64,000 bases of DNA from Robiginitalea myxolifaciens (GTDB taxonomy: Bacteria; Bacteroidota; Bacteroidia; Flavobacteriales; Flavobacteriaceae): the NCBI RefSeq assembly GCF_900115205.1, contig NZ_FOYQ01000001.1, forward strand, positions 62,001 through 126,000, written 5' to 3'. The position numbers and the translations under genes are program-made. Below, piece after piece: positions 33,820-51,200 of this stretch. The notes under the pieces were generated by a model. That model was given only the letters and a program-made list of their open reading frames with translations. It did not search any database and had not been told where the DNA came from. Positions within the stretch are counted from its first letter, which is position 1. Every line of letters starts with the position of its first letter.

Positions 33820-35232
33820 TTAGTTGCGACCTGACCTTGACGAATTGGTTTTCTTTTTGCCCCAATTAGATCTTTTGGGCTTCCCGGCTCTGGATTTCGA
33901 GTTTTTGCCCCGATGTGATTTGTTTTTGCCTGAAGGTTTGTTCTTACGACTTCTTTCTTCATTTCCGGCAGCTGCTGCCTTGGGCTTTTTGCCAGTTTTG
34001 TTTTTCTTTTCTTTTTTACGGGCAAAGTGCTCCTGACGACGCCTGGCTTTAGCCTTTTCGAACTCTTTGCGTTCCCGGGCATTCATCGGTTTGTCGGTTT
34101 GGGGGAAAGGATGGTCCTTTACTTCCTCCAGAGATTGTCCGATGAGCTTTTCGATGTCCTTTAGGTAAGCGAGTTCTTCGGGTTCGCACAACGATATGGC
34201 TATCCCTGATTCCCCTGCCCGCCCGGAACGTCCTATGCGGTGGACATAGGTTTCGGATTCATTGGGAAGATCAAAATTGATCACATAACCCAATTGTTCA
34301 ATATCGATTCCCCGGGAGGCAATATCTGTAGCTACGAGAAGGCGAATCTTACCGGCCTTGAACTCCTTAAGTGCGTGCTGACGCTTATTTTGGGATTTAT
34401 CACCATGAATGGCAACCGCACGTATTCCCGCCTTGCCCAGATTCCGTACAATTTTATCCGCTCCGTGTTTGGTACGTGAAAAAAGCAGGACCTGCTCCAT
34501 TTTAGGATCCTCCAGAATATGCAACAAGAGGGCGTTTTTATCGGGACGGTTTGTTTTATACACATATTGGGTAACCGAATCTGCAGTAGACGAAACAGGA
34601 TCCACGGATACCCGCACCGGCTCCTGGAGAATCTCTTTGGACAGGGTTACGATATCCCGAGGTAATGTAGCCGAGAAAAACAGACTCTGGCGACGTTCCG
34701 GTAACTCGCGGATAATCCGGCGAATATCATTGATAAAGCCCATATCCAGCATACGATCCGCCTCATCCAGCACAAAATGTTGGATTCCCGAAAGATCGAT
34801 TAAGCCTTGTCCTACTAAATCCAACAACCTCCCCGGGGTGGCCACAATAATATCTGCACCCCGACGCACCGCGTCGACCTGTCGGTTTTGTTTTACCCCA
34901 CCGTAAATCGCCGTATAGCGGACGTTGGTGTAACGACCATAAGCCCGAATACTCTGCTCTATCTGGAGGGCTAGCTCCCGGGTAGGCGTCAGGATAAGTC
35001 CGCGAACTGGTCTGTACCCCTTCTTGGCCGGACGGGTTGTGGAAATCTTCTCCAGGATCGGAATTACAAAGGCAGCTGTCTTTCCAGTACCGGTTTGTGC
35101 ACTGGCCAGGATATCCTTGCCTTGAAGTAATTCGGGGATGGCTTGGGATTGAATTGGGGTTGGGTTTGTGTAACCCTCGTGTTTGAGTGCTCGCAGAATC
35201 GGTTCACTCAACGCTAACTGATCGAATGTCAT
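33820..35232 (-). CDS. DEAD-box ATP-dependent RNA helicase with basic tail
   Basis: RNA helicase of the RhlE-like group, about 470 residues. The Q-motif region ([26 protein letters not shown]), Walker [13 protein letters not shown] box [12 protein letters not shown] motif and [10 protein letters not shown] are all present. After residue ~370 comes a long Lys/Arg/Ser-rich tail ending in RSGRN, likely an unstructured RNA-binding arm. The frame is open 93 bases further upstream, but that stretch contains the terminator of the preceding gene, so ATG 35232 (MTFDQLAL) is chosen. Likely role in ribosome assembly or mRNA turnover, perhaps in cold. Confidence 0.94.
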
Positions 35233-35276
35233 AGGTGGAATTAGGGCGCGAAGGTAGTCAATAATACCGATGGGTA

Positions 35277-35308
35277 ACAAAAAAAGAACGCGGGATCTCT
35301 CCCGCGTT
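35277..35308 (-). terminator. Rho-independent terminator after the coiled-coil protein gene
   Basis: Perfect 9-bp stem (35287-35295 with 35300-35308, AACGCGGGA/TCCCGCGTT) with a 4-base loop. On the reverse strand it is followed by CTTTTTTTG, so it ends transcripts of the gene at 35359-35712 and insulates the helicase gene. Confidence 0.9.
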
Positions 35309-35358
35309 CCTACAACCATCATCAAAGCTGGCCCTCGTTACTGAGCCGTATCACTATC

Positions 35359-35712
35359 TTAATTGTCCGTTCCGGACTTTTTGAGGGCTTTTTCTGCTTT
35401 TTTAATTTGCTTAAGCTTCTTTTGCTCCTCTTTGTATTGTTTTTTCTGTTCTTTAAGCGCCTTCTTCTGTTTCTTTACACGCTTCTCCTCGGCCTTCATC
35501 TCGGCTTTCCGGGCCTTCAGCTCTTTCTCGCGTTTACGCATTTCTGCCTTACGCAGGGCCGTAGCCTCTTCTTTGACCGCTTGCTGGCGTTCGGCTTCTG
35601 ACTTCGCTGTCTCAGCTACTGCAGGAATTTCTTTTTCATTAGTATTGTTTTCTTCCTGTCCGTAAGCCAATCCGCCAAGTGCGAGCAGTAAGATGGTAAA
35701 CCATATTTTCAT
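35359..35712 (-). CDS. Small exported Lys/Glu-rich coiled-coil protein
   Basis: 117 residues from ATG 35712 (MKIWFTILLLALGGLAYGQ, a signal peptide); the frame runs 15 codons further but ATG 35712 follows a TATATTTG promoter box. The mature part is almost entirely Lys, Glu, Ala and Gln (repeats of EKELKARKAEMKAEEKR type), predicted to be a continuous charged helix or coiled coil. Similar short proteins are common in flavobacteria with no known function. Confidence 0.75.
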   Translation of the reverse strand: MKIWFTILLLALGGLAYGQEENNTNEKEIPAVAETAKSEAERQQAVKEEATALRKAEMRKREKELKARKAEMKAEEKRVKKQKKALKEQKKQYKEEQKKLKQIKKAEKALKKSGTDN

Positions 35713-35746
35713 GATTTTCAGGGTGTTCGTTTTGAATTTTGCGGCG

Positions 35747-35754
35747 CAAATATA
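35747..35754 (-). promoter_or_regulatory. -7 element upstream of the coiled-coil protein gene
   Basis: On the reverse strand TATATTTG matches TAnnTTTG exactly and lies 34 bases before ATG 35712. No convincing -33 element was found. Confidence 0.5.
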
Positions 35755-35795
35755 CACTTTGGCCGAAATCCTACACTATTAAGACACCGAAATAT

Positions 35796-35830
35796 AAAAG
35801 GGGTCACAAAATATTTTTGTGACCCCTTTT
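35796..35830. terminator. Strong palindromic terminator after the DUF4328 gene
   Basis: Perfect 15-bp stem (35796-35810 with 35816-35830, arms AAAAGGGGTCACAAA and TTTGTGACCCCTTTT), 5-base loop. A/T ends on both sides allow use in either direction; the gene that needs it is the DUF4328 gene ending at 35854 on the reverse strand. Confidence 0.88.
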
Positions 35831-35853
35831 TCAGGTGCTGATTTCAGTGGGTT

Positions 35854-36585
35854 TTAATCCTTGGCTACACGACCGCCGTTTCTTCTAACTCCTTCTACCA
35901 GAGATAATTCCATTTTTCCAATTGCCCACACCAGGTACATTAAGCTGGCGGCTTCCAGTACGCCCACGGCATCGGATATCATCATGAGTTCCGTGCTTTG
36001 GATCATTTGCGGTAAGGTTTCCTCCTTGAAAGCAGAGCGCAGCAGGATGCGACCCAGGAAATTATCGATCAGGAAAAGGGCCCACCAGATGCCGATGACC
36101 CATTTCCCCTCAGGAATTTGAAAGTCTGGGCTGAGTTTTTTGGCCTGTTCCCCGGTTTCGTTCCAGATTTCGTTCATGATACGAACCGGATACCAGAAGG
36201 ATATAATTGGAATGATCCACGACCAGATGGCCCAGTCGTCTTTATGGCGCAAATAGGTTAACCCAAGCCGGTGAAGATTGGCATATGCCCTGCGGAACCA
36301 CATCAAAAACAGCACGGCTGTTGCGATGTATATGATGCTCTGCAGGATACCGATGCCCCCGTGAATAAAATCGCTCAGGGTCGCCTCATCGGGGTCGATC
36401 ATACCCGTAGCCTGGAATTCCTCCAGCAGGCTTATTTGCCAGTATCCAGAAGCTACTCCAGCTAAAGTCAGGGTGGCCCATGCGCCAAAAAGTACATAGA
36501 CAAAATTGCGGCGCATGCGATTTCTCTTGATTTCGATGCCGGCCGCCGGAGCTTCCTCCGATACAAGGGTCAATACGGATTCCAT
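35854..36585 (-). CDS. DUF4328 domain membrane protein
   Basis: 243 residues with about four to five membrane helices. The core segment WFRRAYANLHRLGLTYLRHKD followed by WSWIIPIISFWYPVRIMNEIW is characteristic of DUF4328. Function unknown. It stands alone between a metallo-beta-lactamase gene and a strong terminator. Confidence 0.82.
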   Translation of the reverse strand: MESVLTLVSEEAPAAGIEIKRNRMRRNFVYVLFGAWATLTLAGVASGYWQISLLEEFQATGMIDPDEATLSDFIHGGIGILQSIIYIATAVLFLMWFRRAYANLHRLGLTYLRHKDDWAIWSWIIPIISFWYPVRIMNEIWNETGEQAKKLSPDFQIPEGKWVIGIWWALFLIDNFLGRILLRSAFKEETLPQMIQSTELMMISDAVGVLEAASLMYLVWAIGKMELSLVEGVRRNGGRVAKD

Positions 36586-36665
36586 AGGTTGGTTTTAAGA
36601 GGAAACGTCCTGGTGCCCCACTTATTGAAATAATTCGACAAGGTGCCCGGAAATAAGATGAGCAG

Positions 36666-37418
36666 CTAGCGTTTTTTACTGAATAAGTTTGCCGTATAAT
36701 CCAATAGTTCTGTGCCTCCGGGTAGACCATGCCCAGGAATTACCACCTTGAGGTTGGGAAATACCTCCCTGGTACTGGCCATTGTTTTGGACCATTCCCG
36801 TACAACGGCATCTTCCAGATTCCCTTCTCCTGCCCCAATGGATTTAACCAGACATCCACCAAAGAGCACTTCTTCTTCGGCTACATAAACCAGTAAATTA
36901 TCCCGGGTATGCCCGTTGCCCACAAACTGAATCTGTACGCTGCGCTGCCCGATTTTGAACTCTTTATAGGATTCAATGACCTGCTGTGGAGGAGTTCCCC
37001 CTGATTTTTGAGCCAATCTGGGTGTTTTACGATATCCGTAGGAGGGTACACCCTTCTGGTGAAAGAGTGGCAGTCCGATCAGGCAATCCGCGTGAAAATG
37101 CGTGGCGATTACGGCTTTTATTTGCGCCTGCTGGTCGGCCGTAAGCCAATTGATTAATTCCTCGGTACCTTCCAGGCTCGCCGGGGTATCTGCAACAAGG
37201 GCTTCGCCTTCGCTTAGTACCAGCATACCGTTACAGGCAATCTTGCCCCAGTCCTCGGTATGGAGATAGGAAATATGCCGGTAAACCTGCTCACTGATTT
37301 TTTCAAGAATGAGCTCCTCCGATTCATAAACTATTTCCGGGGCATTGTCCTGGGCGTAGGTCCAGGATATACCCAGGAGAAAGATAAATGCGACATAATG
37401 TGCTCGTAGCTGCTTCAT
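36666..37418 (-). CDS. Subclass B1 metallo-beta-lactamase
   Basis: Exported zinc beta-lactamase, 250 residues with a signal peptide ending TYAQ. The subclass B1 metal set is complete: H107-x-H109-x-D111 in THFHADC (standard H116/H118/D120), H170 in GNGHTRDN (H196), C189 in GGCLVKS (C221) and H230 in PGHG (H263). The cysteine ligand separates B1 from B3 and from general MBL-fold hydrolases. Expected to open the beta-lactam ring in the periplasm. Base composition matches the neighbours and no mobile element is near, so it looks like a resident chromosomal gene. It follows a PqqB-like MBL-fold gene by five bases. Confidence 0.9.
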   Translation of the reverse strand: MKQLRAHYVAFIFLLGISWTYAQDNAPEIVYESEELILEKISEQVYRHISYLHTEDWGKIACNGMLVLSEGEALVADTPASLEGTEELINWLTADQQAQIKAVIATHFHADCLIGLPLFHQKGVPSYGYRKTPRLAQKSGGTPPQQVIESYKEFKIGQRSVQIQFVGNGHTRDNLLVYVAEEEVLFGGCLVKSIGAGEGNLEDAVVREWSKTMASTREVFPNLKVVIPGHGLPGGTELLDYTANLFSKKR

Positions 37419-37423
37419 AGTAA

Positions 37424-38425
37424 CTATAACGGAAAACGATCCCCGTAACGACCAATACGATAACCCAGCTCCAAAATCGAGAGGCTTTCCGGGCTATTTG
37501 GGTCCAGTACGGGGTTGGTATGATTAAAGTGGATGAAAATAATCTTCTGCTTTTGTTCGGGTGGAAGACCCTTGAACTGTTCCAGGCTCTCCAAAATGAA
37601 TGGATGGGGAATCTCATTCATATCCCGATTGCCCAATTCGGTACCGCTGTAAAACGTGGCATCCAGGAAAGCATAATCTACCTGCTGTATTTCTGCAATG
37701 ATGTCGCGTTCCCACAGTGCCCATTTGTCGATGTCCGGTATGAACAAAGCGCTCTTCTCGGGCCCCTGGATGCTGTAGCCCACGGTTTCTGAGTACTCGT
37801 CCCGATGCGGAACTTTTAATGGGGTTACCTGTAATTGATCCGATAAGCTCACGGGTACACCATCGCTCAAGTCCTGAAGGGCTATGTTTTCCCGGCGCAC
37901 CAGCTGGTCCCAGGGTCCATTTTGACCGAGGAAGTCACGCATCCTGGGCATAACATAAACCGGCACTTTCCGGGCATCCATTACCTCTTTCCCCAAATAC
38001 ATCAGCCCGGTGTAATGGCCAATATGCGCATGGGTGAGGAATATTCCGTTGGGGACAATACTATTTGCCTGGGATAGCTTTCCGAGATATTCCAGTTGGG
38101 CGCTGATGTCAGGGGTTGCTTCAAATAGGTAGGATTTACCGTCATCGATATCGACCAATCCCAAGGAAACCACCTGCCGGGTACGATCCGGATTTTCGAA
38201 TAGATCAGCGCAGCATTCCTTTTGACAGCCCGCCTGGGGTGAGCCGGCATCCTGAACATTCCCCAAAATAACCAGCGAAGTATGTTGTAATGGCGGGATC
38301 TTCAGGGTCTCGATCCGGGCTTCAGTGACCGGCGTTTCAGATTCGGATGACCCTCCCCTGGAATCTGCCTTCTCCCCGCAGGAGATAATACTGAGCGATA
38401 ATAGCGCGAATAGGAACTTCTTCAT
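37424..38425 (-). CDS. MBL-fold lipoprotein, PqqB-like
   Basis: 333 residues with lipobox IISC at residues 13-16. MBL-fold hydrolase resembling PqqB: VILGNVQDAGSPQAGCQKECC near residue 53 and the metal motif THAHIGHYTGL near 135, with later VPHRDEYSETVGYSI and FLDATFYSG. No other PQQ synthesis genes are present in the window and the protein is a lipoprotein, so a role in PQQ biosynthesis is doubtful; an independent hydrolase is more likely. It is the first gene of a pair with the B1 beta-lactamase. Confidence 0.85.
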   Translation of the reverse strand: MKKFLFALLSLSIISCGEKADSRGGSSESETPVTEARIETLKIPPLQHTSLVILGNVQDAGSPQAGCQKECCADLFENPDRTRQVVSLGLVDIDDGKSYLFEATPDISAQLEYLGKLSQANSIVPNGIFLTHAHIGHYTGLMYLGKEVMDARKVPVYVMPRMRDFLGQNGPWDQLVRRENIALQDLSDGVPVSLSDQLQVTPLKVPHRDEYSETVGYSIQGPEKSALFIPDIDKWALWERDIIAEIQQVDYAFLDATFYSGTELGNRDMNEIPHPFILESLEQFKGLPPEQKQKIIFIHFNHTNPVLDPNSPESLSILELGYRIGRYGDRFPL

Positions 38426-38495
38426 ACTAACTTTTGCCGGCCTTACGCAAATTAGGGTATTCCCCCGAGCTACAAAAAAAGAAGAACCCGGTGGT

Positions 38496-39293
38496 CTAGT
38501 AATAGGAAAAGGAGTAAAAGGAGACTACGAGAATCAGCAGCATCAGGGTCACCGCCCAGATATAGCTCTTACTGGTGACCTTATAAGCCGCCTTCAGCCT
38601 GGAATTATCCAAAGTCCAGGCAATGCCCAAAAAGGCAGCGAATAGCACAAATACCATCCCGGCACTGGGAACATCTACGAGCCGATCGTAAAAACTGCTT
38701 GTCGAAAGCAAGCCGGATTCTACCGGTCGCATCCGGAGAATTACGATAAAACCGATCAGGGCGCTCAAAATATAATACAAGGTATAGCCCATGAGCAGGA
38801 TCCATCCCGCCCGTTTCCCTATCCAAAACAGGAAAACACCCAAAGGGATTAGCAGCATCAGGAGCAGGGTTTCCAGGAAGAAAATAACGGAAGAGCCCAG
38901 TGGACTGTCGAATACATATTGCAGGTACTGTACTCCGGTATACCAGATAAAGAGGCTGTGCAACCCAAAAAATATACAGAGGATGACAATGCGCTTTCGC
39001 AGCGATGAACTCCCTTCTGAGATGGGATTGATGGCCCCTGAAAGCCTGGTTCCGATGCCGGACCAACGGGCCTGGCGGGCTAATTCGGATGCCGCTCTGC
39101 GTTCCTTATCGGCCTGTTCTTTCTGGAGTTGCTGTTGTATCTGCGACTTTTCATCTTCACTGAGGGTACGATCCGCAATTTCTTCCTGCGCTGCCGCGAT
39201 TGCTTCAGGCTGGTATTCGTGCTTGAAGGCCAGAATGCGCATCAAGTCCAGATTCGAATAGGATTGGTATGTCTTTCTGAAATCGTAAATCAA
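38496..39293 (-). CDS. Hypothetical membrane protein with soluble N-terminal helix region
   Basis: 265 residues if translation starts at a TTG (39293); the first in-frame ATG is at 39242, giving 248 residues. The N-terminus (YSNLDLMRILAFKHEYQPEAIAAAQEEI) resembles a short repeat found ahead of membrane helices in many flavobacterial proteins, and at least five hydrophobic segments follow. Function unknown. Its 5' end abuts the AT-rich segment carrying the NTPase-TIR gene, so the original start may have been altered; see the finding there. Confidence 0.7.
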   Translation of the reverse strand: MIYDFRKTYQSYSNLDLMRILAFKHEYQPEAIAAAQEEIADRTLSEDEKSQIQQQLQKEQADKERRAASELARQARWSGIGTRLSGAINPISEGSSSLRKRIVILCIFFGLHSLFIWYTGVQYLQYVFDSPLGSSVIFFLETLLLMLLIPLGVFLFWIGKRAGWILLMGYTLYYILSALIGFIVILRMRPVESGLLSTSSFYDRLVDVPSAGMVFVLFAAFLGIAWTLDNSRLKAAYKVTSKSYIWAVTLMLLILVVSFYSFSYY

Positions 39294-39340
39294 AATTTAC
39301 GGGTACAATTAATACTTAGCCACCAATATTTTTATAAGAA

Positions 39341-40858
39341 TTATTCATCTTGGGGTGAGTTCACCTCCTTTTTTTTAGCTCTATCTCTTCTTTTCTCCTC
39401 AAGCTTTTTAGAAAGCATTTCAACAATCTTGGAGACCTCTGTATCAAATTCAGCATTTACATCGAATGTCATACCACCATATTTTCTAGATTCATCAAAA
39501 AGACTCGAATCTGTGTCCGAAAACCATATAGGAATAATAGCATTCTCGCCAAATCTCTTTTTAAAATGTTCGGATTCAAATTTGGTCCATATTTTTTTTG
39601 GATAGTCAGAGCTAATCAAGACTACAACGAAATCCGCCTCTGAATTATAAATCGGGGCCAAATAATCTTCCACATTTAACGCCAGAATTCTATGTTGCTC
39701 ATTTTTATCATAAAAAACCGCTATTTCCCTATCCGTTAGATTCTCGAAAAGTGATTCAGCCAAATCCCTATTCTCACCTGCAAACGAAAGTGCAAAGTCG
39801 TAGGGTTTAGAGAATTCTACTCCTATGAAACCTATTTGTTCGGCAAATTTGTTCCAGAGAATATTTCGAATGAAAAATAAAAATTTTGGATCCTCTACGG
39901 TTAATATGTTAGAGTGATCGTCATAATGAATAACATCCTGTAACATAGGGTTCTCTCCGATAAGTTTGGTTAGATAGCCTTTTTCAACAACCTGATTAAT
40001 ACTAAGTTTCATTTCAGGATGTTGGGAAAGTAGTTCATCAATATTAATTGACCACTCCGGACTAATTGCTAACCAATGGAGTAAATGCAAATATGGGGCC
40101 CTGCCCTCTTTTCGAAGTTTTGATCCTATTGCAAAAGCTCTCGCTTTAGGATAAAATAGTCTTGCTAATTCCTGAATCACTTTGGATCGAACCGTTTCTA
40201 AACTAGTATCCGTAATACTAATACCAGAGGTGTTATCTATAATATCACAACTAATACAGGTTTCCTTGGCAAGCATTTGAGCAATATGAAAGCTACCCTT
40301 TGATTCAGAGATAAGTTCACTCTTAATGTTTAATTCAATATTAAGTGCATTTTCACCCAAAGTGAGCATTTCCTCTATTTTCTCCTCAGGGTTAGCTTCA
40401 AACTTAATAGTATCGATTCGATTGTTTAAATCTGGAGAAAAGGAAACTAACGAGTCTCCAGCTTTGTTAATACCAATTAGTATTAATTTCGATGATTCCG
40501 AATCTTCGTCGGCTAAGGTTTTCATGAAATCTGATAAATCCTTTTTAATATCATTGGGCAAAACATGAAAGTCATCAACAATTACAATACCCATATCCGA
40601 AAACTCCGGTAAAAGTTTTATCATTTCGACATCTTCCTTTTTCCGGGCAGAAAGAGAGGTAACCGATGCTAATAGTCCTATTTCCTCAATTGCCTTATTT
40701 ATACTTGTTGTTTTACCTATTCCTGATGGCCCTTCCACAACTAAGCCACGACCTTTAGTTCTCAAGGCAACTACAAGCTTGGTATATTCTACAGGCTTAA
40801 CAAAAGTATGCGTTGGGGTTCCAGAGGTCTTAAAAACATCTTCTAAGTAAATTTTCAT
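39341..40858 (-). CDS. P-loop NTPase with C-terminal TIR domain, candidate defence protein
   Basis: 505 residues. The N-terminal AAA+/STAND-type ATPase has Walker A GPSGIGKT at 43-50, Walker B IVIVDDF at 91-97, a sensor-like LILIGINKAG at 125-134 and a candidate arginine finger at R147. A helical/winged-helix region follows, including VEDPKFLFFIRN. From about 353 a TIR domain begins (DFALSFAGENRDLAE); SSDYPKKIWTKFE ends in E428, which lies nine residues after Y419 exactly as the catalytic glutamate of NAD-cleaving TIRs. The last 25 residues are highly charged. The gene is AT-rich (two 60-base lines counted at 33% and 35% GC, against 47% and 53% in neighbours), a sign of transfer. Likely an immune sensor that depletes NAD on phage attack; the trigger is unknown. 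Confidence 0.88.
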   Translation of the reverse strand: MKIYLEDVFKTSGTPTHTFVKPVEYTKLVVALRTKGRGLVVEGPSGIGKTTSINKAIEEIGLLASVTSLSARKKEDVEMIKLLPEFSDMGIVIVDDFHVLPNDIKKDLSDFMKTLADEDSESSKLILIGINKAGDSLVSFSPDLNNRIDTIKFEANPEEKIEEMLTLGENALNIELNIKSELISESKGSFHIAQMLAKETCISCDIIDNTSGISITDTSLETVRSKVIQELARLFYPKARAFAIGSKLRKEGRAPYLHLLHWLAISPEWSINIDELLSQHPEMKLSINQVVEKGYLTKLIGENPMLQDVIHYDDHSNILTVEDPKFLFFIRNILWNKFAEQIGFIGVEFSKPYDFALSFAGENRDLAESLFENLTDREIAVFYDKNEQHRILALNVEDYLAPIYNSEADFVVVLISSDYPKKIWTKFESEHFKKRFGENAIIPIWFSDTDSSLFDESRKYGGMTFDVNAEFDTEVSKIVEMLSKKLEEKRRDRAKKKEVNSPQDE

Positions 40859-40900
40859 ACAAAAGATCTAAAATGGTTAGATATTTAGAGTGTTGTCCGA

Positions 40901-40945
40901 AGTAAGCAAAATCTTACTAATATTCCTGCATTTTACGGGAATATT
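40901..40945. promoter_or_regulatory. Two inverted repeats upstream of the NTPase-TIR gene
   Basis: AGTAAG-CAAAAT-CTTACT (40901-40918) is directly followed by AATATTCC-N11-GGAATATT (40919-40945). Both are perfect in their arms. They lie in the 180-base region between the reverse-strand TIR gene and the forward BNR-repeat gene, and could be operators or a small hairpin. Function is inferred only from position. Confidence 0.35.
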
Positions 40946-41038
40946 TTCTTGGGTCTTATCCTTTCCCTTAACAAACCTTTAACGTGCCTTCCCCCTGCCG
41001 TTTTCATACCTTTAGGCGACTAATCGACTATACTTCAA

Positions 41039-44000
41039 ATGAAAAGAGCTTTACTCCTCGGGTTGCTATTGGCAGCCTTCCCCCTGTTTGCACAAGATTT
41101 TAACATGAAACTCGCGGGCGACCTCAAGCCCCGCAACATTGGCCCCGGCGGCATGAGTGGCCGGGTAACGGCCATTGACGTGGTAACCGACAATCCCGAC
41201 GTCATGTATGCAGGGACTGCTTCCGGTGGCCTTTGGAAGTCTACCTCAGGCGGTATCAAATGGGAGCCCATTTTTGACGATCAACCTACGGCAAGTATCG
41301 GCGCAGTGGCGATTCAGCAAAGTAACCCCTCAGTCATTTGGGTGGGTACCGGCGAAGGGAACCCTCGTAACTCCCTCAATGGCGGCTACGGAGTGTACCG
41401 CAGTCTGGACGGCGGAAAATCCTGGCAATCTATGGGCCTGGAGGAAACCCGGCATATCCACAGAATTATCGTAGATCCTACCGATCCCAATACCGTCTAC
41501 GTCGGTGCCATCGGAACGCCCTGGGGCGAGCACCCGCAACGTGGGGTATTTAAAACTACGGATGGCGGGAAAACCTGGAATAAAATTCTCTTCGTTAATA
41601 ATAAGACAGGGGTTGGAGACATGGTCATGGACCCTACGAATCCCAACAAACTCCTGGTAGGTATGTGGGAGCACCGTCGCTGGCCCTGGTTCTTTGAATC
41701 GGGAGGACCTGGAAGCGGGCTGTACATGACCCATGACGGGGGTGCTACCTGGAAACAACTCGGGGAAAACGATGGTTTGCCTAAAGGGGATTTGGGACGA
41801 ATTGGCCTGGCTATTGCGCCCGGCAAGCCCAACATTATATACGCATTAATCGAATCCAAGAAAAATGCGCTTTATAAATCTGAGGACGGCGGGTTCAAGT
41901 GGAAAAAGATCAACGACAAAAACGATATCGGAAACCGACCTTTCTATTATTCGGATATCCATGTAGATCCGCAGAACGAAAATCGCATCTATTCGGTTTT
42001 TACCTATGTGAATGTGAGCGAGGACGGAGGAAAGAATTTCTCCCAGTTAATGCCCGCTTATGGAGTAGATAATGGCGTACACCCCGATCACCATGCCTGG
42101 TGGATCCATCCGGAAAACGGGCAATTTATGATGGACGGTAATGACGGCGGGCTCAACCTTACCAAGGATGGCGGGAAAACCTGGCGATTTGTAGGTAACC
42201 TGCCCGTAGCCCAGTTCTATCATATTTCGGTAGACAATGAGTTTCCCTACAATGTTTACGGCGGTATGCAGGACAACGGTTCCTGGCGCGGACCGGCCTA
42301 TGTGTGGCGAGCCCAGGGTATCCGCAACGATTACTGGCAGGAAATCGCATTCGGCGACGGTTTTGATGTAGTCCCCGACCCGGACGACAGTCGCTACGGT
42401 TATGCCATGAGCCAGGAAGGTTTTGTGGTACGCTACGATTGGATCACAGGGGATGGATACATCGTTAGGCCTACCTCGCCGGACGACTCTACGCGTCTGC
42501 GCTTTAACTGGAATTCGGCCATTGGGCAGGATCCCTTCGATAACAATACCGTTTATTTTGGCAGCCAGTTTGTGCACAAAAGCCGGGATAAGGGACTTAC
42601 CTGGGAGGTTATTTCCCCGGACCTGACCACGAACAATCCGGAGAAGCAAAAACAAACCGAAAGTGGGGGGCTCACCATGGATGCCACTGGTGCAGAAAAT
42701 CACACGACCCTGCTGGTCATTGAACCTTCACCAGTAGAGCGCAATATGCTCTGGGTCGGTTCCGATGATGGCCGGGTTCATTACACCGCCAACGGCGGGG
42801 AGAGCTGGACGGAAGTTACCGGGAACATCAAAGGACTGCCAGCAGGAAGCTGGATCCCGCAGATTAAGGCTTCGGCCACCCGTCCCGGAGAGGCCCTGTT
42901 GGTCGCGAATGATTATCGGCGCTATAACTATACCCCCTATGCCTGGCGTACCCGGGATTATGGAAGGTCTTGGCAGCGCATAGTAGACAGCGAGGATGTG
43001 GGTTCCTATGTACTGTCAATCGTTGAGGACAAGGAGAATCCCAACCTGATGTTCCTGGGTACCGACGACGGTTTATATTATTCCCTCAATGCAGGAGGAA
43101 GCTGGGATAAGTGGGATCACGGTTTCCCTACCGTAAGTACCAAAGACTTGGTGATCCACCCGCGCGAACAGGACCTGATCATTGGAACCTTTGGTCGCGC
43201 AGCCTGGGTACTGGACGATATCCGTCCCCTTCGCGCTATGGCTGGAAACAGCGGCATATTGGCGAAAGATGTTGCCCTTTTTCCGGCACCAACAGCCTAC
43301 GATGCCGCATACCAGCAACCTACTGGAAGCCGATTCGGAGGAGATGCTTTGTTTAATGGCGAGAACCGGCGTGGCGGCGCTATGATTACGTACTACCTCA
43401 AAGAAGGCAAGAAAGATCGCAAACCGGATCCCAAGAAAGAAGTAAAGAATGAGGCTGATAAAAACGCTGAAGATGGGGATACTGAAGCCATGGTCGCTGA
43501 TAAGAAGCCCACAAAGGATTCCGTAATCTTTAAGTTTTACGATGGGGAGCGCCTGATTCGAACCTTGAAGTATAAGACCCCGGATTCAGCAGGATTGCAT
43601 CGCATCTATTGGGGGCTGGATGAGGCCGGGGCCGACCGGCCCTCTCGCAGTCTGCGCAAGCGCAACCGGGAACCAGGAGGTCCAACCGTAAAACCGGGAA
43701 CATATAAAGTAGTTGCTCATTTTGGGGAAGCTAAGGATTCAACCACGGTCACCGTGGCAACCGATCCCCGACTCGATGTGCCTGCTAAGGCAATAGATGA
43801 TGCCTACGCGGCAGCTACCAAACTGGAAGGATGGCAACAAACGGCGGCCGATGCCATGAAACAGTTGGCGGAGAGCAAGAAAACAGCCGAGGACCTGATG
43901 AAGACCCTGAAGGACAAAGACAAAGAGGGCTTTAAGGACGAACAGAAGGCTTCCAAGGCCATTGTAAAAGATATCGATTCGGTAATGGCACTCTACCTGG

Positions 44001-44272
44001 GCAAAGAGGACAAACGCCAGGGGATAACCGCTACCAAAGAAGTCCCCGTTAGTGAGCGTATGCAATGGGCATATTACTACTCGGTAACACGGCCCAATGG
44101 GCTAACCGCAACAGAACAGCGTTTGATGGAATTTGCGGAGCAGGATCTCAATGCGTTTTTAGATGCTACCAATGCCTTTTTTACCGAGAAATGGCCGGAA
44201 TACAAAGCCACCATCGAGGCCCTGGAACTTTCTCCTTTCAAAGAGACCGAGTCGTTTAAAATAGATGAGTGA
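41039..44272 (+). CDS. Large exported BNR/sortilin-like beta-propeller protein, copy 2
   Basis: 1077 residues with signal peptide MKRALLLGLLLAAFPLFAQ. It shares the repeat layout and many segments with the gene at 30102 (GGLWKSTSGGIKWEPI, GVFKTTDGGKTWNKIL, VHKSRDKGLTWEVISPDL), so the two are paralogues. It carries an insertion rich in Lys, Asp and Glu near residues 790-840 absent from copy 1. Probably a periplasmic or surface protein tied to glycan or peptide use; no catalytic residues identified. A TACCTTTA promoter-like box lies at 41007-41014. Confidence 0.88.
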   Translation: MKRALLLGLLLAAFPLFAQDFNMKLAGDLKPRNIGPGGMSGRVTAIDVVTDNPDVMYAGTASGGLWKSTSGGIKWEPIFDDQPTASIGAVAIQQSNPSVIWVGTGEGNPRNSLNGGYGVYRSLDGGKSWQSMGLEETRHIHRIIVDPTDPNTVYVGAIGTPWGEHPQRGVFKTTDGGKTWNKILFVNNKTGVGDMVMDPTNPNKLLVGMWEHRRWPWFFESGGPGSGLYMTHDGGATWKQLGENDGLPKGDLGRIGLAIAPGKPNIIYALIESKKNALYKSEDGGFKWKKINDKNDIGNRPFYYSDIHVDPQNENRIYSVFTYVNVSEDGGKNFSQLMPAYGVDNGVHPDHHAWWIHPENGQFMMDGNDGGLNLTKDGGKTWRFVGNLPVAQFYHISVDNEFPYNVYGGMQDNGSWRGPAYVWRAQGIRNDYWQEIAFGDGFDVVPDPDDSRYGYAMSQEGFVVRYDWITGDGYIVRPTSPDDSTRLRFNWNSAIGQDPFDNNTVYFGSQFVHKSRDKGLTWEVISPDLTTNNPEKQKQTESGGLTMDATGAENHTTLLVIEPSPVERNMLWVGSDDGRVHYTANGGESWTEVTGNIKGLPAGSWIPQIKASATRPGEALLVANDYRRYNYTPYAWRTRDYGRSWQRIVDSEDVGSYVLSIVEDKENPNLMFLGTDDGLYYSLNAGGSWDKWDHGFPTVSTKDLVIHPREQDLIIGTFGRAAWVLDDIRPLRAMAGNSGILAKDVALFPAPTAYDAAYQQPTGSRFGGDALFNGENRRGGAMITYYLKEGKKDRKPDPKKEVKNEADKNAEDGDTEAMVADKKPTKDSVIFKFYDGERLIRTLKYKTPDSAGLHRIYWGLDEAGADRPSRSLRKRNREPGGPTVKPGTYKVVAHFGEAKDSTTVTVATDPRLDVPAKAIDDAYAAATKLEGWQQTAADAMKQLAESKKTAEDLMKTLKDKDKEGFKDEQKASKAIVKDIDSVMALYLGKEDKRQGITATKEVPVSERMQWAYYYSVTRPNGLTATEQRLMEFAEQDLNAFLDATNAFFTEKWPEYKATIEALELSPFKETESFKIDE

Positions 44273-48870: not shown

Positions 48871-48901
48871 TTGAACTACCTCACTAATTTGACTATCTTT
48901 A
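48871..48901 (+). promoter_or_regulatory. Promoter of the superoxide dismutase gene
   Basis: TTG at 48871-48873 and TATCTTTA at 48894-48901 are separated by 20 bases, close to the Bacteroidota TTTG/TAnnTTTG arrangement. The ATG of the dismutase follows 24 bases later. Confidence 0.4.
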
Positions 48902-48924
48902 AGGGGAAACCTAAAAACAATACC

Positions 48925-49524
48925 ATGAAAAAATTACCGCTTTTACTCTTATCCCTTTCACTGCTTACCGGTGTAGGCTGTAAAGAAGCTAAAAAAGAGG
49001 CTGAAGCTGCTGCGGAGGATATGGAAACTACCGCTGAGGATGCCTTGGAGGAGATGAAGGCAGAGATGACGGAAGAGAAAATTGCCTTTAAAATGGAGCC
49101 CAAAAGCGATAGTGGGGTGCAGGGGGAAGTCTCATTTACCGAAAAGGATGGTTCGGTAATGATGCATGCTTCCTTTACCGGTTTGAGTGCCGGGGAACAC
49201 GCCATTCACATCCATGAGAAAGCCGATTGTTCCGCTGCTGATGGGACTTCGACTGGCGGACACTGGAATCCGACCAGCGAACCGCATGGCAAGTGGGGCG
49301 ACGAAGGGGGATATCACAAAGGAGATATCGGAAACTTCACTGCAGATGAAGCCGGGAATGGCATGGTTGAATTTGAGACCGACCAATGGTGTATTGGTTG
49401 TGATGACCCTGCAAAAAATATTGTTGGCAAGGCCGTTATTGTGCATCAGGGAACCGATGATTTTACGTCACAACCCAGCGGAGCAGCAGGAGCGCGCATT
49501 TCCTGTACAGGAATTATCGAATAG
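48925..49524 (+). CDS. Cu/Zn superoxide dismutase family lipoprotein
   Basis: 199 residues from ATG 48925 (MKKLPLLLLSLSLL); lipobox GVGC. An acidic linker precedes the SOD_Cu domain. Metal ligands are visible in HAIHIHEKADC, GGHWNP, GYHKGDIGN and VIVHQGTDDF, and the catalytic arginine region reads GAAGARISC. It should dismutate superoxide in the periplasm. It has its own promoter-like element and a strong terminator. Confidence 0.93.
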   Translation: MKKLPLLLLSLSLLTGVGCKEAKKEAEAAAEDMETTAEDALEEMKAEMTEEKIAFKMEPKSDSGVQGEVSFTEKDGSVMMHASFTGLSAGEHAIHIHEKADCSAADGTSTGGHWNPTSEPHGKWGDEGGYHKGDIGNFTADEAGNGMVEFETDQWCIGCDDPAKNIVGKAVIVHQGTDDFTSQPSGAAGARISCTGIIE

Positions 49525-49561
49525 CCCGGATAGTTAAAATATTGCTGATTGCACAGCATAA

Positions 49562-49590
49562 AAAAGCCCCGAATGTATCGGGGCTTTTCT
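49562..49590. terminator. Terminator between superoxide dismutase and small membrane peptide
   Basis: Perfect 11-bp stem (49562-49572 with 49578-49588, AAAAGCCCCGA/TCGGGGCTTTT), 5-base loop. The A- and T-runs let it act in both directions, serving the dismutase gene (+) and the 36-codon gene on the other strand, which ends 19 bases away. Confidence 0.9.
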
Positions 49591-49606
49591 TATATGGTTT
49601 TAATTT

Positions 49607-49717
49607 CTAAGCTTTGTCGGAGTGGAGTGTTTTCTGAAGCGACTGATGCGCCGAATAGACCCATAGGCCCAGTATAATCATCAAAAACAACCACAAGGAA
49701 AAGAGAAAGATTTCCAT
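49607..49717 (-). CDS. Putative 36-residue single-span membrane protein
   Basis: The reverse strand reads ATG at 49717 to TAG at 49607, 36 codons: an N-terminal hydrophobic span (MEIFLFSLWLFLMIILGLWV) then a short polar tail ending HSDKA. The hydrophobic/polar division and the facing terminator at 49562-49588 support a real gene. No RBS is seen, as is usual here. Its size recalls small respiratory or regulatory membrane subunits, but no family can be assigned. Confidence 0.55.
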   Translation of the reverse strand: MEIFLFSLWLFLMIILGLWVYSAHQSLQKTLHSDKA

Positions 49718-50021
49718 AACATATAGTTTAAGGTTACTAAAGGCCCTTCCGTTTGGGGCGAGAAGGGAGATTTGGTTCTGGGTCGAAAGTATAAATATTT
49801 TGTTAATAAACCTAAGAATTATTCATAGAAATGCCTGATAACATGGCATTTAGCAAAATTTTCTCCTGTTTATAACCACTTGTTACCGGGCCATTTTAAA
49901 GGCCTTATCGACCAACTGCACCATTTTGAATACATCAACGGCTTAATGAAAGAATAATCTGGGAGGTTTTTCTTACCCTGAAATATATTCTACTTTAGCC
50001 GTTTAATCCTACTTGCATTAA
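49718..50021. other. Intergenic region of about 300 bases with one inverted repeat
   Basis: No further reading frame is convincing. AAATGCC-N9-GGCATTT (49829-49835 with 49845-49851) is a perfect 7-bp inverted repeat, and GGCC-ATTTTAAA-GGCC is another short one near 49900. The region must contain divergent promoters for the small peptide and the LETM1-related gene; a weak TACTTTAG box lies near 49991. Confidence 0.4.
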
Positions 50022-51200
50022 GTGAACCCTTCTGCATCAGGCTGGATAGACAAATTCGGACACCTGGTAAACCAATGGTCTAATTCCCCCGGGGATTTCT
50101 ACAGTGTTTACCGGGATTTGAGAACCATGGGTTTTACCTATGGTATGAATGTCTCTATACCTGATTTCGTGGAGCCTGCGCATAAACTGACGCAGGATGA
50201 AATGGCCAAAATCAATTTGCTGTATGGCCTGTATGCAACCTATGTTATTCATAGGGGAAACGGGAATTTCAACGCCTTCCTGAAGGAAGTGTTTGAATTT
50301 TATCAGGACCTCGATATTGGTCGGATTTCTTTCCTGGAGAAAATACTGAGTGGCAGCAAGACTTCTGCACAACTTGAAAGGCTACTCGATTCACGAATCC
50401 ACCTGGACACCAATGTGCTGACCCGCAGTTTTAATAGTCTGCTGACCAATACCATGCTTTTTGTCGATGTCCTCACCCTGGAGGCCTACTTAGTAGGAAG
50501 AGGGGACTTACAACGTTATGCGCGTAATTTGGAATACCTAAGTATCAATATCGCCTATCAGGCCCTTTCCAGTAGGGAGGAACAGCCGGAAGAGGATCGG
50601 CTCAGAGAGCTATTCAAAGCTTCCATGACATTTATGGAAGATCCCCTGGAAGAAGTTGACCTCGGGTATCGCAACATGCTTACAGAATATAAAAGAAGTT
50701 CGGCCGCCCCTTACTTCCTCGATTTGGCATGCCTGGCGGTGTGGGAGGATGCCCGGTTGCAGGGAACTGAATCCGATTTTGTTGCCGAACTGGGAAAAGA
50801 ACTCGGATTTGCCGAAGAGGAAACCCAGCAGGCACTGGTCGAGGTAACTGCCTTTTTAGGGAACCACAGCGGGGAACTCCAAATCTTTCGCCGGGAGAAA
50901 TTCTATGATGGGGTCAGCTCCCTGGTAGGTAAACTAATCCGGCGAAACAGTAAGCGTTTGCAGAAGGAATTATCACAGTCCCGGGACCTGGTCTTTTTGC
51001 TTTCCAAGTCTACGGTAAAAGACCTCAGTGCGAAGGAGCGTGAGCAGGTGCAAAATCAATTGCTCGACATCTTTAAGAGTATCCCGTCCCTGGCCATATT
51101 TATGCTGCCGGGAGGAGCGATATTACTACCGATTTTCATCAAACTAATTCCCAAGCTACTCCCCTCTTCCTTCGACGAAAACCGGGTCGATAAGAAGTGA
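50022..51200 (+). CDS. LETM1-related biofilm-associated protein
   Basis: 392 residues starting with GTG (MNPSASGWIDKFGHLVNQW). Mostly helical and soluble, with a C-terminal hydrophobic segment (PSLAIFMLPGGAILLPIFIKLIPKLLPSSF) that matches the LETM1-like ending of proteins annotated this way in flavobacteria. Role in biofilm formation is taken from the family name, not visible here. Monocistronic, followed by an AT-rich hairpin. Confidence 0.85.
   Translation: MNPSASGWIDKFGHLVNQWSNSPGDFYSVYRDLRTMGFTYGMNVSIPDFVEPAHKLTQDEMAKINLLYGLYATYVIHRGNGNFNAFLKEVFEFYQDLDIGRISFLEKILSGSKTSAQLERLLDSRIHLDTNVLTRSFNSLLTNTMLFVDVLTLEAYLVGRGDLQRYARNLEYLSINIAYQALSSREEQPEEDRLRELFKASMTFMEDPLEEVDLGYRNMLTEYKRSSAAPYFLDLACLAVWEDARLQGTESDFVAELGKELGFAEEETQQALVEVTAFLGNHSGELQIFRREKFYDGVSSLVGKLIRRNSKRLQKELSQSRDLVFLLSKSTVKDLSAKEREQVQNQLLDIFKSIPSLAIFMLPGGAILLPIFIKLIPKLLPSSFDENRVDKK

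Follow-up and report, generated by a model that had tools for sequence, protein, structure and literature searches.

What does a lone GC-poor gene that joins an ATPase to a TIR domain do for a flavobacterium? The gene lies in the window analyzed here, a 64,000-nt stretch of the Robiginitalea myxolifaciens genome (contig NZ_FOYQ01000001.1, positions 62,001–126,000). An earlier note on this DNA had read it as an isolated insertion encoding a STAND/NLR-like immune sensor, in which the NTPase oligomerizes and the TIR domain kills the cell. We judge that kind of function likely, and set aside both the isolation of the gene and the STAND/NLR frame for its ATPase. The reading we favor, and hold to be fairly probable, is that of a stand-alone, horizontally spreading anti-phage protein whose AAA+ half oligomerizes and so brings TIR domains together to break down NAD.

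Genomic Context in Robiginitalea

The ORF at 39341–40858 (minus strand) begins with ATG and encodes a protein of 505 amino acids, here called AAA-TIR. As the earlier note had remarked, the gene is much poorer in GC than its neighbors: its GC content of 0.357 (0.301 at third codon positions, GC3) is the lowest of the 45 window ORFs of at least 150 amino acids, the other 44 of which average 0.496 (sd 0.019), with a mean GC3 of 0.545 (sd 0.043). The flanking genes face apart, also as described, the left one (38496–39293, minus strand, TTG start as called) encoding 265 amino acids at ordinary GC and the right one (41039–44272, plus strand) a sortilin/VPS10-like protein. A dip in GC to 0.376 at 49500–49999 falls mostly between the ORFs at 48871–49524 and 50022–51200 and is apparently intergenic.

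A search of the nine congeneric genomes, one of which is just 74% complete, gave no match to the AAA-TIR protein, so that the gene is not a fixture shared at one place, with one base composition, by all relatives. Any match was found in eight of 99 relatives, R. myxolifaciens included, and a full-length one in its own genome alone. The left neighbor is likewise without a match in all nine congeners and is probably not part of the AAA-TIR system. The sortilin/VPS10-like gene has a counterpart in all nine (74–82% identity), with some of the following genes in the same order, so that the insertion meets core sequence on this side; the protein has many paralogs, with 11 matches in its own genome, some of which are split pieces of one gene.

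At a threshold of 45% identity, none of the window genes of 35.3–41.0 kb turned up next to the conserved right flank in the congener stretches, the upstream sequence compared being at least about 1.9 kb in seven of the nine and only 0.4 and 1.5 kb in G007 and G001. Since these genes, the left neighbor among them, were not seen at the congener site, the TIR gene sits in a variable stretch (35326–40965) next to a conserved block, and the earlier statement that no other accessory gene lies nearby does not hold. The gene at 33820–35325 has a counterpart within about 0.4–2.3 kb upstream of the sortilin/VPS10-like counterpart in three congeners (G002, G005, and G008), and the metallo-beta-lactamase-fold gene at 37424–38425 occurs in eight of the nine, at other places.

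Upstream BLASTN matches of more than 90 bases came from two congeners (L154 and L160), and in both of these resemblance to the window begins at about 40965, which places the end of the insertion between 40858 and about 40965, within the AT-rich stretch upstream of the TIR gene (40859–40965). A scan for mobile-element borders gave chance-size 8-mers only. The 8-bp direct repeat TTTACGGG at 39296–39303 and 40932–40939, whose copies form the outer ends of the interval 39296–40939 given in the earlier note, was one of these; about 0.3 such matches are expected by chance in the stretches compared (a hand estimate with equal base frequencies), and the scan gave a second 8-mer besides, so the repeat offers no evidence for a mobile-element border.

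An AAA+ ATPase Fused to a TIR Domain

The motifs and their order are as first noticed: Walker A (GPSGIGKT, residues 43–50), Walker B (IVIVDDF, residues 91–97), a helical middle, and a C-terminal TIR domain with E428, all in one gene. A TIR_2 search, which the earlier note had proposed, gave a Pfam match at residues 355–460 (E = 4.4e-8, 34.1 bits against a cutoff of 28), and we place the TIR domain at residues 353–465 (39464–39802, minus strand). The closest solved structures by sequence are also TIR domains, 7uxr (2.7e-6) and AbTIR (5.2e-5); E428, which sits in WTKFESE, aligns to a glutamate in both 7uxr and the NAD hydrolase AbTIR, in keeping with the catalytic position originally proposed for it. 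Among PADLOC profiles, PDC-S66 matches the TIR part (1.1e-10) and ThsB does so weakly (2.5e-4). This part of the AlphaFold model is less confident (block means of 54–76 over residues 381–440, and 58 around E428), and one long helix after it closes the chain. These matches point to a TIR fold with a catalytic-type glutamate, for which NADase activity would be the expected function.

Residues 1–345 (39824–40858, minus strand) comprise the AAA+ ATPase, its lid, and a winged-helix-like region. Pfam gave AAA-type matches at the N-terminus below threshold only. The AlphaFold2 model of the full-length protein, built with 66 family members, has a mean pLDDT of 84.8, and that of residues 1–347 alone (46 sequences) 90.9. 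When the two models were compared with the PDB by Foldseek (E up to 0.001), the best 50 of 574 and of 500 matches were all ORC/Cdc6, RFC-type, clamp-loader, or RuvB chains. Among the matches listed, query TM-scores for the AAA+ part of the 1–347 model are 0.41–0.51, sequence identities are 10–18%, and rmsd values are large, as expected if hinged domains are placed differently. Walker A, Walker B, sensor 1, and arginine-finger positions of an ORC/Cdc6–RFC–RuvB-type AAA+ protein are all present. R147 directly precedes strand 148–152 of the 1–347 model, just before the fifth strand, which we take to be the clamp-loader arginine-finger place; the role of N131 as sensor 1 is likewise assumed from AAA+ anatomy. 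Beyond the lid, the same model shows helices and two short strands (310–313 and 318–321).

On its predicted structure, then, the NTPase is an AAA+ protein of the ORC/Cdc6–RFC–RuvB type, and its fold and arginine placement favor an oligomeric AAA+ ATPase over a STAND switch. The suggestion that this half is of a build made to oligomerize thus gains from the models, and of the families against which it was to be compared, the Orc1-like alternative is favored by fold, with Pfam AAA matches below threshold, and STAND is not. AAA-TIR shares with ORC/Cdc6, RFC, and RuvB the fold and the arginine just before the fifth strand, but it is fused to a TIR domain and is a patchy accessory gene rather than a core replication protein.

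A STAND/NLR-like immune receptor, such as TIR-NLR of P4 satellites, would also join a TIR domain to an NTPase, and Pfam gave a weak nSTAND_NTPase5 match (E = 0.043, 14.1 bits against a cutoff of 34). TIR-NLR, as outlined by Rousset et al. (2022; PMC9122126), is a single gene carried on mobile elements that protects Escherichia coli, and in these respects, apart from the protection, it resembles AAA-TIR. Its central STAND NTPase and C-terminal TPRs (PMC9122126) differ from the arrangement seen here, in which an ORC/RFC-type AAA+ half precedes a C-terminal TIR domain within 505 amino acids. With ORC/RFC-type chains making up the 50 listed fold matches, the nSTAND match below its cutoff, and a C-terminal repeat sensor absent, we reject STAND/NLR membership, and with it the kinship first proposed, as very unlikely. 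The lack of a long repeat sensor had been noted before and is borne out: the chain ends with the TIR domain and its helix, and Pfam gave no repeat family.

A Widespread Family

In a phylum-level sample of 395 genomes, R. myxolifaciens included, AAA-TIR had any match in 30 and a full-length one in six, the five other full-length proteins being 78, 59, 52, 51, and 30% identical to it. A pattern scan of a genome collection gave at least 114 confirmed relatives among 582 candidate stretches, from which 79 loci were kept, and 16 loci came from 138 candidates among IMG/VR viral contigs. Plasmid matches were found in 10 of 72,556 records (five with at least 80% coverage), and a single match, to the TIR part only, in 50,697 phage records. 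Searched at the DNA level against 5,426 E. coli genomes (20,395 records), the gene on a Pantoea plasmid has no match. A copy covering residues 5–390 occurs in an archaeon, by record name Methanococcoides seepicolus.

A full-length member is present in 88 of the 95 loci (79 genomic and 16 viral), with frames mostly of 486–600 amino acids by longest start. Including the window protein, K49, R147, W424, and E428 are identical in all 89, D95 is kept in 88, and N131 in 79. Selection of the genomic loci relied on two short patterns, one for the TIR start and one for Walker A, and that of the viral loci on patterns for the two Walker motifs, A and B, so that conservation of these motifs is partly built in; R147 and E428 lay outside the patterns. 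The members fall into two groups divided at 36% identity to the window protein, with 76 on the higher side and 12 on the lower. A few appear to be near-copies (L097/L143 and L147/L153), and some of the genomes numbered G are apparently the same records as L loci. One acidobacterial copy is broken over two frames (L121:7986-8832). An apparent extra N-terminal domain in the 1,150-amino-acid frame of L071 was dismissed, as by eye it is antisense read-through in a GC-rich genome.

The gene is therefore no one-off; the same architecture occurs across bacteria, and AAA-TIR appears, judging by sequence, to be a widespread single-gene family without a description in the literature searched. In that literature, which covers subscription papers thinly and leaves an earlier report possible, we recognized no account of a fusion of an ORC-like AAA+ ATPase with a TIR domain.

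Spread over Phyla and Base Composition

A quick maximum-likelihood tree was made from 73 rows, the window protein and the full-length genomic loci. Its 13 phylum labels need 22 changes (minimum possible, 12), and the Pseudomonadota alone need 13, nine of them forced by well-supported branches. Mixed labels of this kind are no proof of transfer, bins may hold foreign contigs, and 20 of the 70 inner branches are weak, with long branches flagged; the pattern nonetheless suggests that the gene has passed between phyla. The labels also cluster by phylum: shuffled labels need 41.1 changes on average, and none of 200 shuffles came down to 22, so that much of the family's history may lie within phyla. 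The window protein groups with those of Muriicola marianensis and a Flavobacterium, and the genes around these two copies (L059 and L060) have no counterpart among the window ORFs at E = 1e-5.

A regulator outside immunity, or a gene that now has no function, would agree with our having found no functional data on the family. Intact reading frames and catalytic residues fully conserved over 13 phylum labels make such a gene highly improbable.

The gene is poorer in GC than its surroundings in all 67 loci with enough flank, by 0.117 on average and by more than 0.05 in 59, whereas only 17 of 278 other ORFs of at least 350 amino acids lie lower by more than 0.05. Even in the GC-rich host of L068 the gene has 0.627 against 0.706 in its flanks. 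A low GC content thus characterizes the family as a whole and does not point to one AT-rich donor, and the idea of a recent acquisition in Robiginitalea from such a donor is correspondingly weakened.

Gene Neighborhoods

Neighboring ORFs were called mechanically (longest, non-overlapping) and clustered over the 95 loci, among which no conserved partner or operon gene recurs; the largest cluster besides AAA-TIR itself comes from 11 loci, at scattered distances. The gene accordingly stands alone, as the earlier note had it. We scanned 133 of 135 selected adjacent ORFs (all but L106:9566-10331 and L121:8320-8829) and found type I specificity subunits in five, TIR_2 in four, and phage integrases in three. 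Among the first 25 of 132 Pfam families (the corresponding PADLOC set being the first 25 of 180), the others mostly occurred once each and many were housekeeping families. A TIR profile specific to the family found one TIR neighbor (L082), compared with the four of 133 found by Pfam TIR_2.

HsdM-like genes lie near AAA-TIR in seven of the 95 loci, and the cluster that holds the hsdR of L103 touches four. In L103 the gene stands between hsdM and hsdR, both passing NCBIfam cutoffs; in L088 (hsdM and hsdR) and L059 (hsdM and a specificity subunit) the NCBIfam matches are clear yet below cutoff. The gene preceding AAA-TIR in L103 and L088 has no NCBIfam match at E = 1e-10, and its size and place fit hsdS. 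In both of these type I restriction loci (L103:7992-9461 and L088:7980-9467), AAA-TIR is embedded in the locus, and the hsdR-like gene follows it after a few bases.

On the viral contig of L142, AAA-TIR is flanked by a tail-completion gene on one side and by baseplate and tail-fiber genes on the other, and L146, L147, and L153 have much of the same gene order. Integrases lie near it on Gloeothece and Acetobacter plasmids. Occurrence on viral contigs and plasmids, together with the GC content below that of the flanks in all 67 loci, would suit a gene that serves the stability of mobile elements, or competition between them, with NAD loss as a toxin rather than a defense. We regard this as quite improbable: an antitoxin-like partner gene does not recur, and, as in the window, the gene can also stand alone on a large chromosomal contig.

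On a Curtobacterium plasmid, a caspase gene and a small TIR gene lie within a few kilobases of AAA-TIR (L165:5995-9439), as do TIR and phospholipase genes on the Pantoea plasmid (L166:5995-13422). Among bacterial TIR enzymes, some produce cyclic ADP-ribose as a signal, so that the TIR domain of this family might signal rather than kill. AAA-TIR would then sense infection, make a messenger of the cyclic ADP-ribose type, and switch on a separate killer, as in Thoeris. The alignment to AbTIR and 7uxr, which we take to be TIR enzymes of a kind that makes cADPR isomers, fits such a scheme, as do the weak ThsB match, the TIR_2 domains in four of 133 adjacent genes, and the genes on these two plasmids. 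In Thoeris, however, a TIR gene is paired with an effector gene, and beside AAA-TIR neither a ThsA-type nor any other effector gene recurs in the 95 loci; the ThsB match covers the TIR part only, the ATPase is in the same chain, and the two plasmid loci have other TIR genes nearby. The five window genes scanned around AAA-TIR also hold no effector-type family. We therefore think a signaling role rather unlikely.

Proposed Function and Sensing

From the domain makeup, the conservation of key residues, the stand-alone gene, and its patchy distribution and scatter over phyla, with occurrence in prophage-type contigs, plasmids, and restriction loci, we infer that AAA-TIR oligomerizes, cleaves NAD, and protects against phage in response to a trigger. 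In the anti-phage reading that we prefer, the AAA+ half would bind ATP and recognize a sign of infection. ATP at the subunit interfaces, completed by R147 of the neighboring subunit, would build an oligomer, which would bring the C-terminal TIR domains together; the clustered domains would use E428 to split NAD, so that the infected cell is stopped or killed. TIR killers would here be tied to an ATPase of the type that loads replication machines and not to the usual STAND/NLR switch.

A precedent for clustering is SpbK, a TIR-domain defense protein in which TIR clustering gives NADase activity (Mishra et al. 2025; PMC12847820). For AAA-TIR clustering is proposed; in SpbK a phage portal protein brings it about, and the abstract of that report names no ATPase (PMC12847820).

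What the protein might sense is suggested by its pattern of conservation. Mean pairwise identities in the larger group are 0.51 (AAA core), 0.42 (lid), 0.40 (residues 216–310), 0.45 (residues 311–345), and 0.53 (TIR domain), whereas those of the linker and the C-terminal tail are 0.25 and 0.28; by domain identity this group has no large hypervariable domain. Two stretches, 211–240 and 301–315, reach entropies of 2.4–2.7 bits, about equal to that of the tail, and being variable they could touch a variable ligand such as a phage protein. Of the 89 proteins, 85 to 89 share each of the basic residues R37, R72, K247, and R249.

We suspect, with little confidence, that the trigger is invariant, and our guess favors a nucleic-acid or replication structure over any single phage protein. 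The ORC/RFC-type fold makes a DNA or replication structure the simplest candidate; a protein common to many phages may fit equally well. AAA-TIR could tentatively be seen as a replication-initiator- or clamp-loader-like AAA+ ATPase turned immune receptor, which detects an unvarying structural feature of phage DNA or of its replication (ends, junctions, or forks), assembles on it, and fires its TIR domain, a proposal we put forward as possible and no stronger. Recognition would fall to the basic residues conserved in the AAA+ half and its winged-helix-like region, and sensing of this kind would explain identities of about 40–60% in each folded domain among members of the larger group without a large sensor domain. 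If this is right, a DNA-structure sensor is wired straight to NAD loss in one chain. Being compact, partnerless, widespread, and without a large sensor domain, the family is a convenient case for learning how small immune proteins recognize infection.

Relationship to PDC-S59

The ATPase half also resembles PDC-S59, one of the PADLOC candidates (PDCs) that are described as unvalidated (PMC12988326); our literature search found no papers on PDC-S59. Residues 85–331 align with positions 149–401 of the 428-position profile (E = 5e-19). Both are single-gene NTPases, and when four proteins that match PDC-S59 are aligned with the family, N-terminal V-F-G-P-T positions are shared by 90% or more of the sequences. 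These four relatives (L003:1036-2334, L045:1105-2394, L042:1309-2667, and L002:1105-2379) have 424–452 amino acids, match most of the profile's length at 7.8e-27 to 2.4e-70, and have no TIR profile match in PADLOC, whereas the window protein carries a TIR domain behind its winged-helix-like region and matches part of the profile only. On these comparisons we class it as a distant PDC-S59-like ATPase bearing a fused TIR domain, and not as a plain PDC-S59 member. By eye, no obvious effector is encoded within the short stretches surrounding the four ATPases, and AAA-TIR suggests an effector logic for these uncharacterized proteins.
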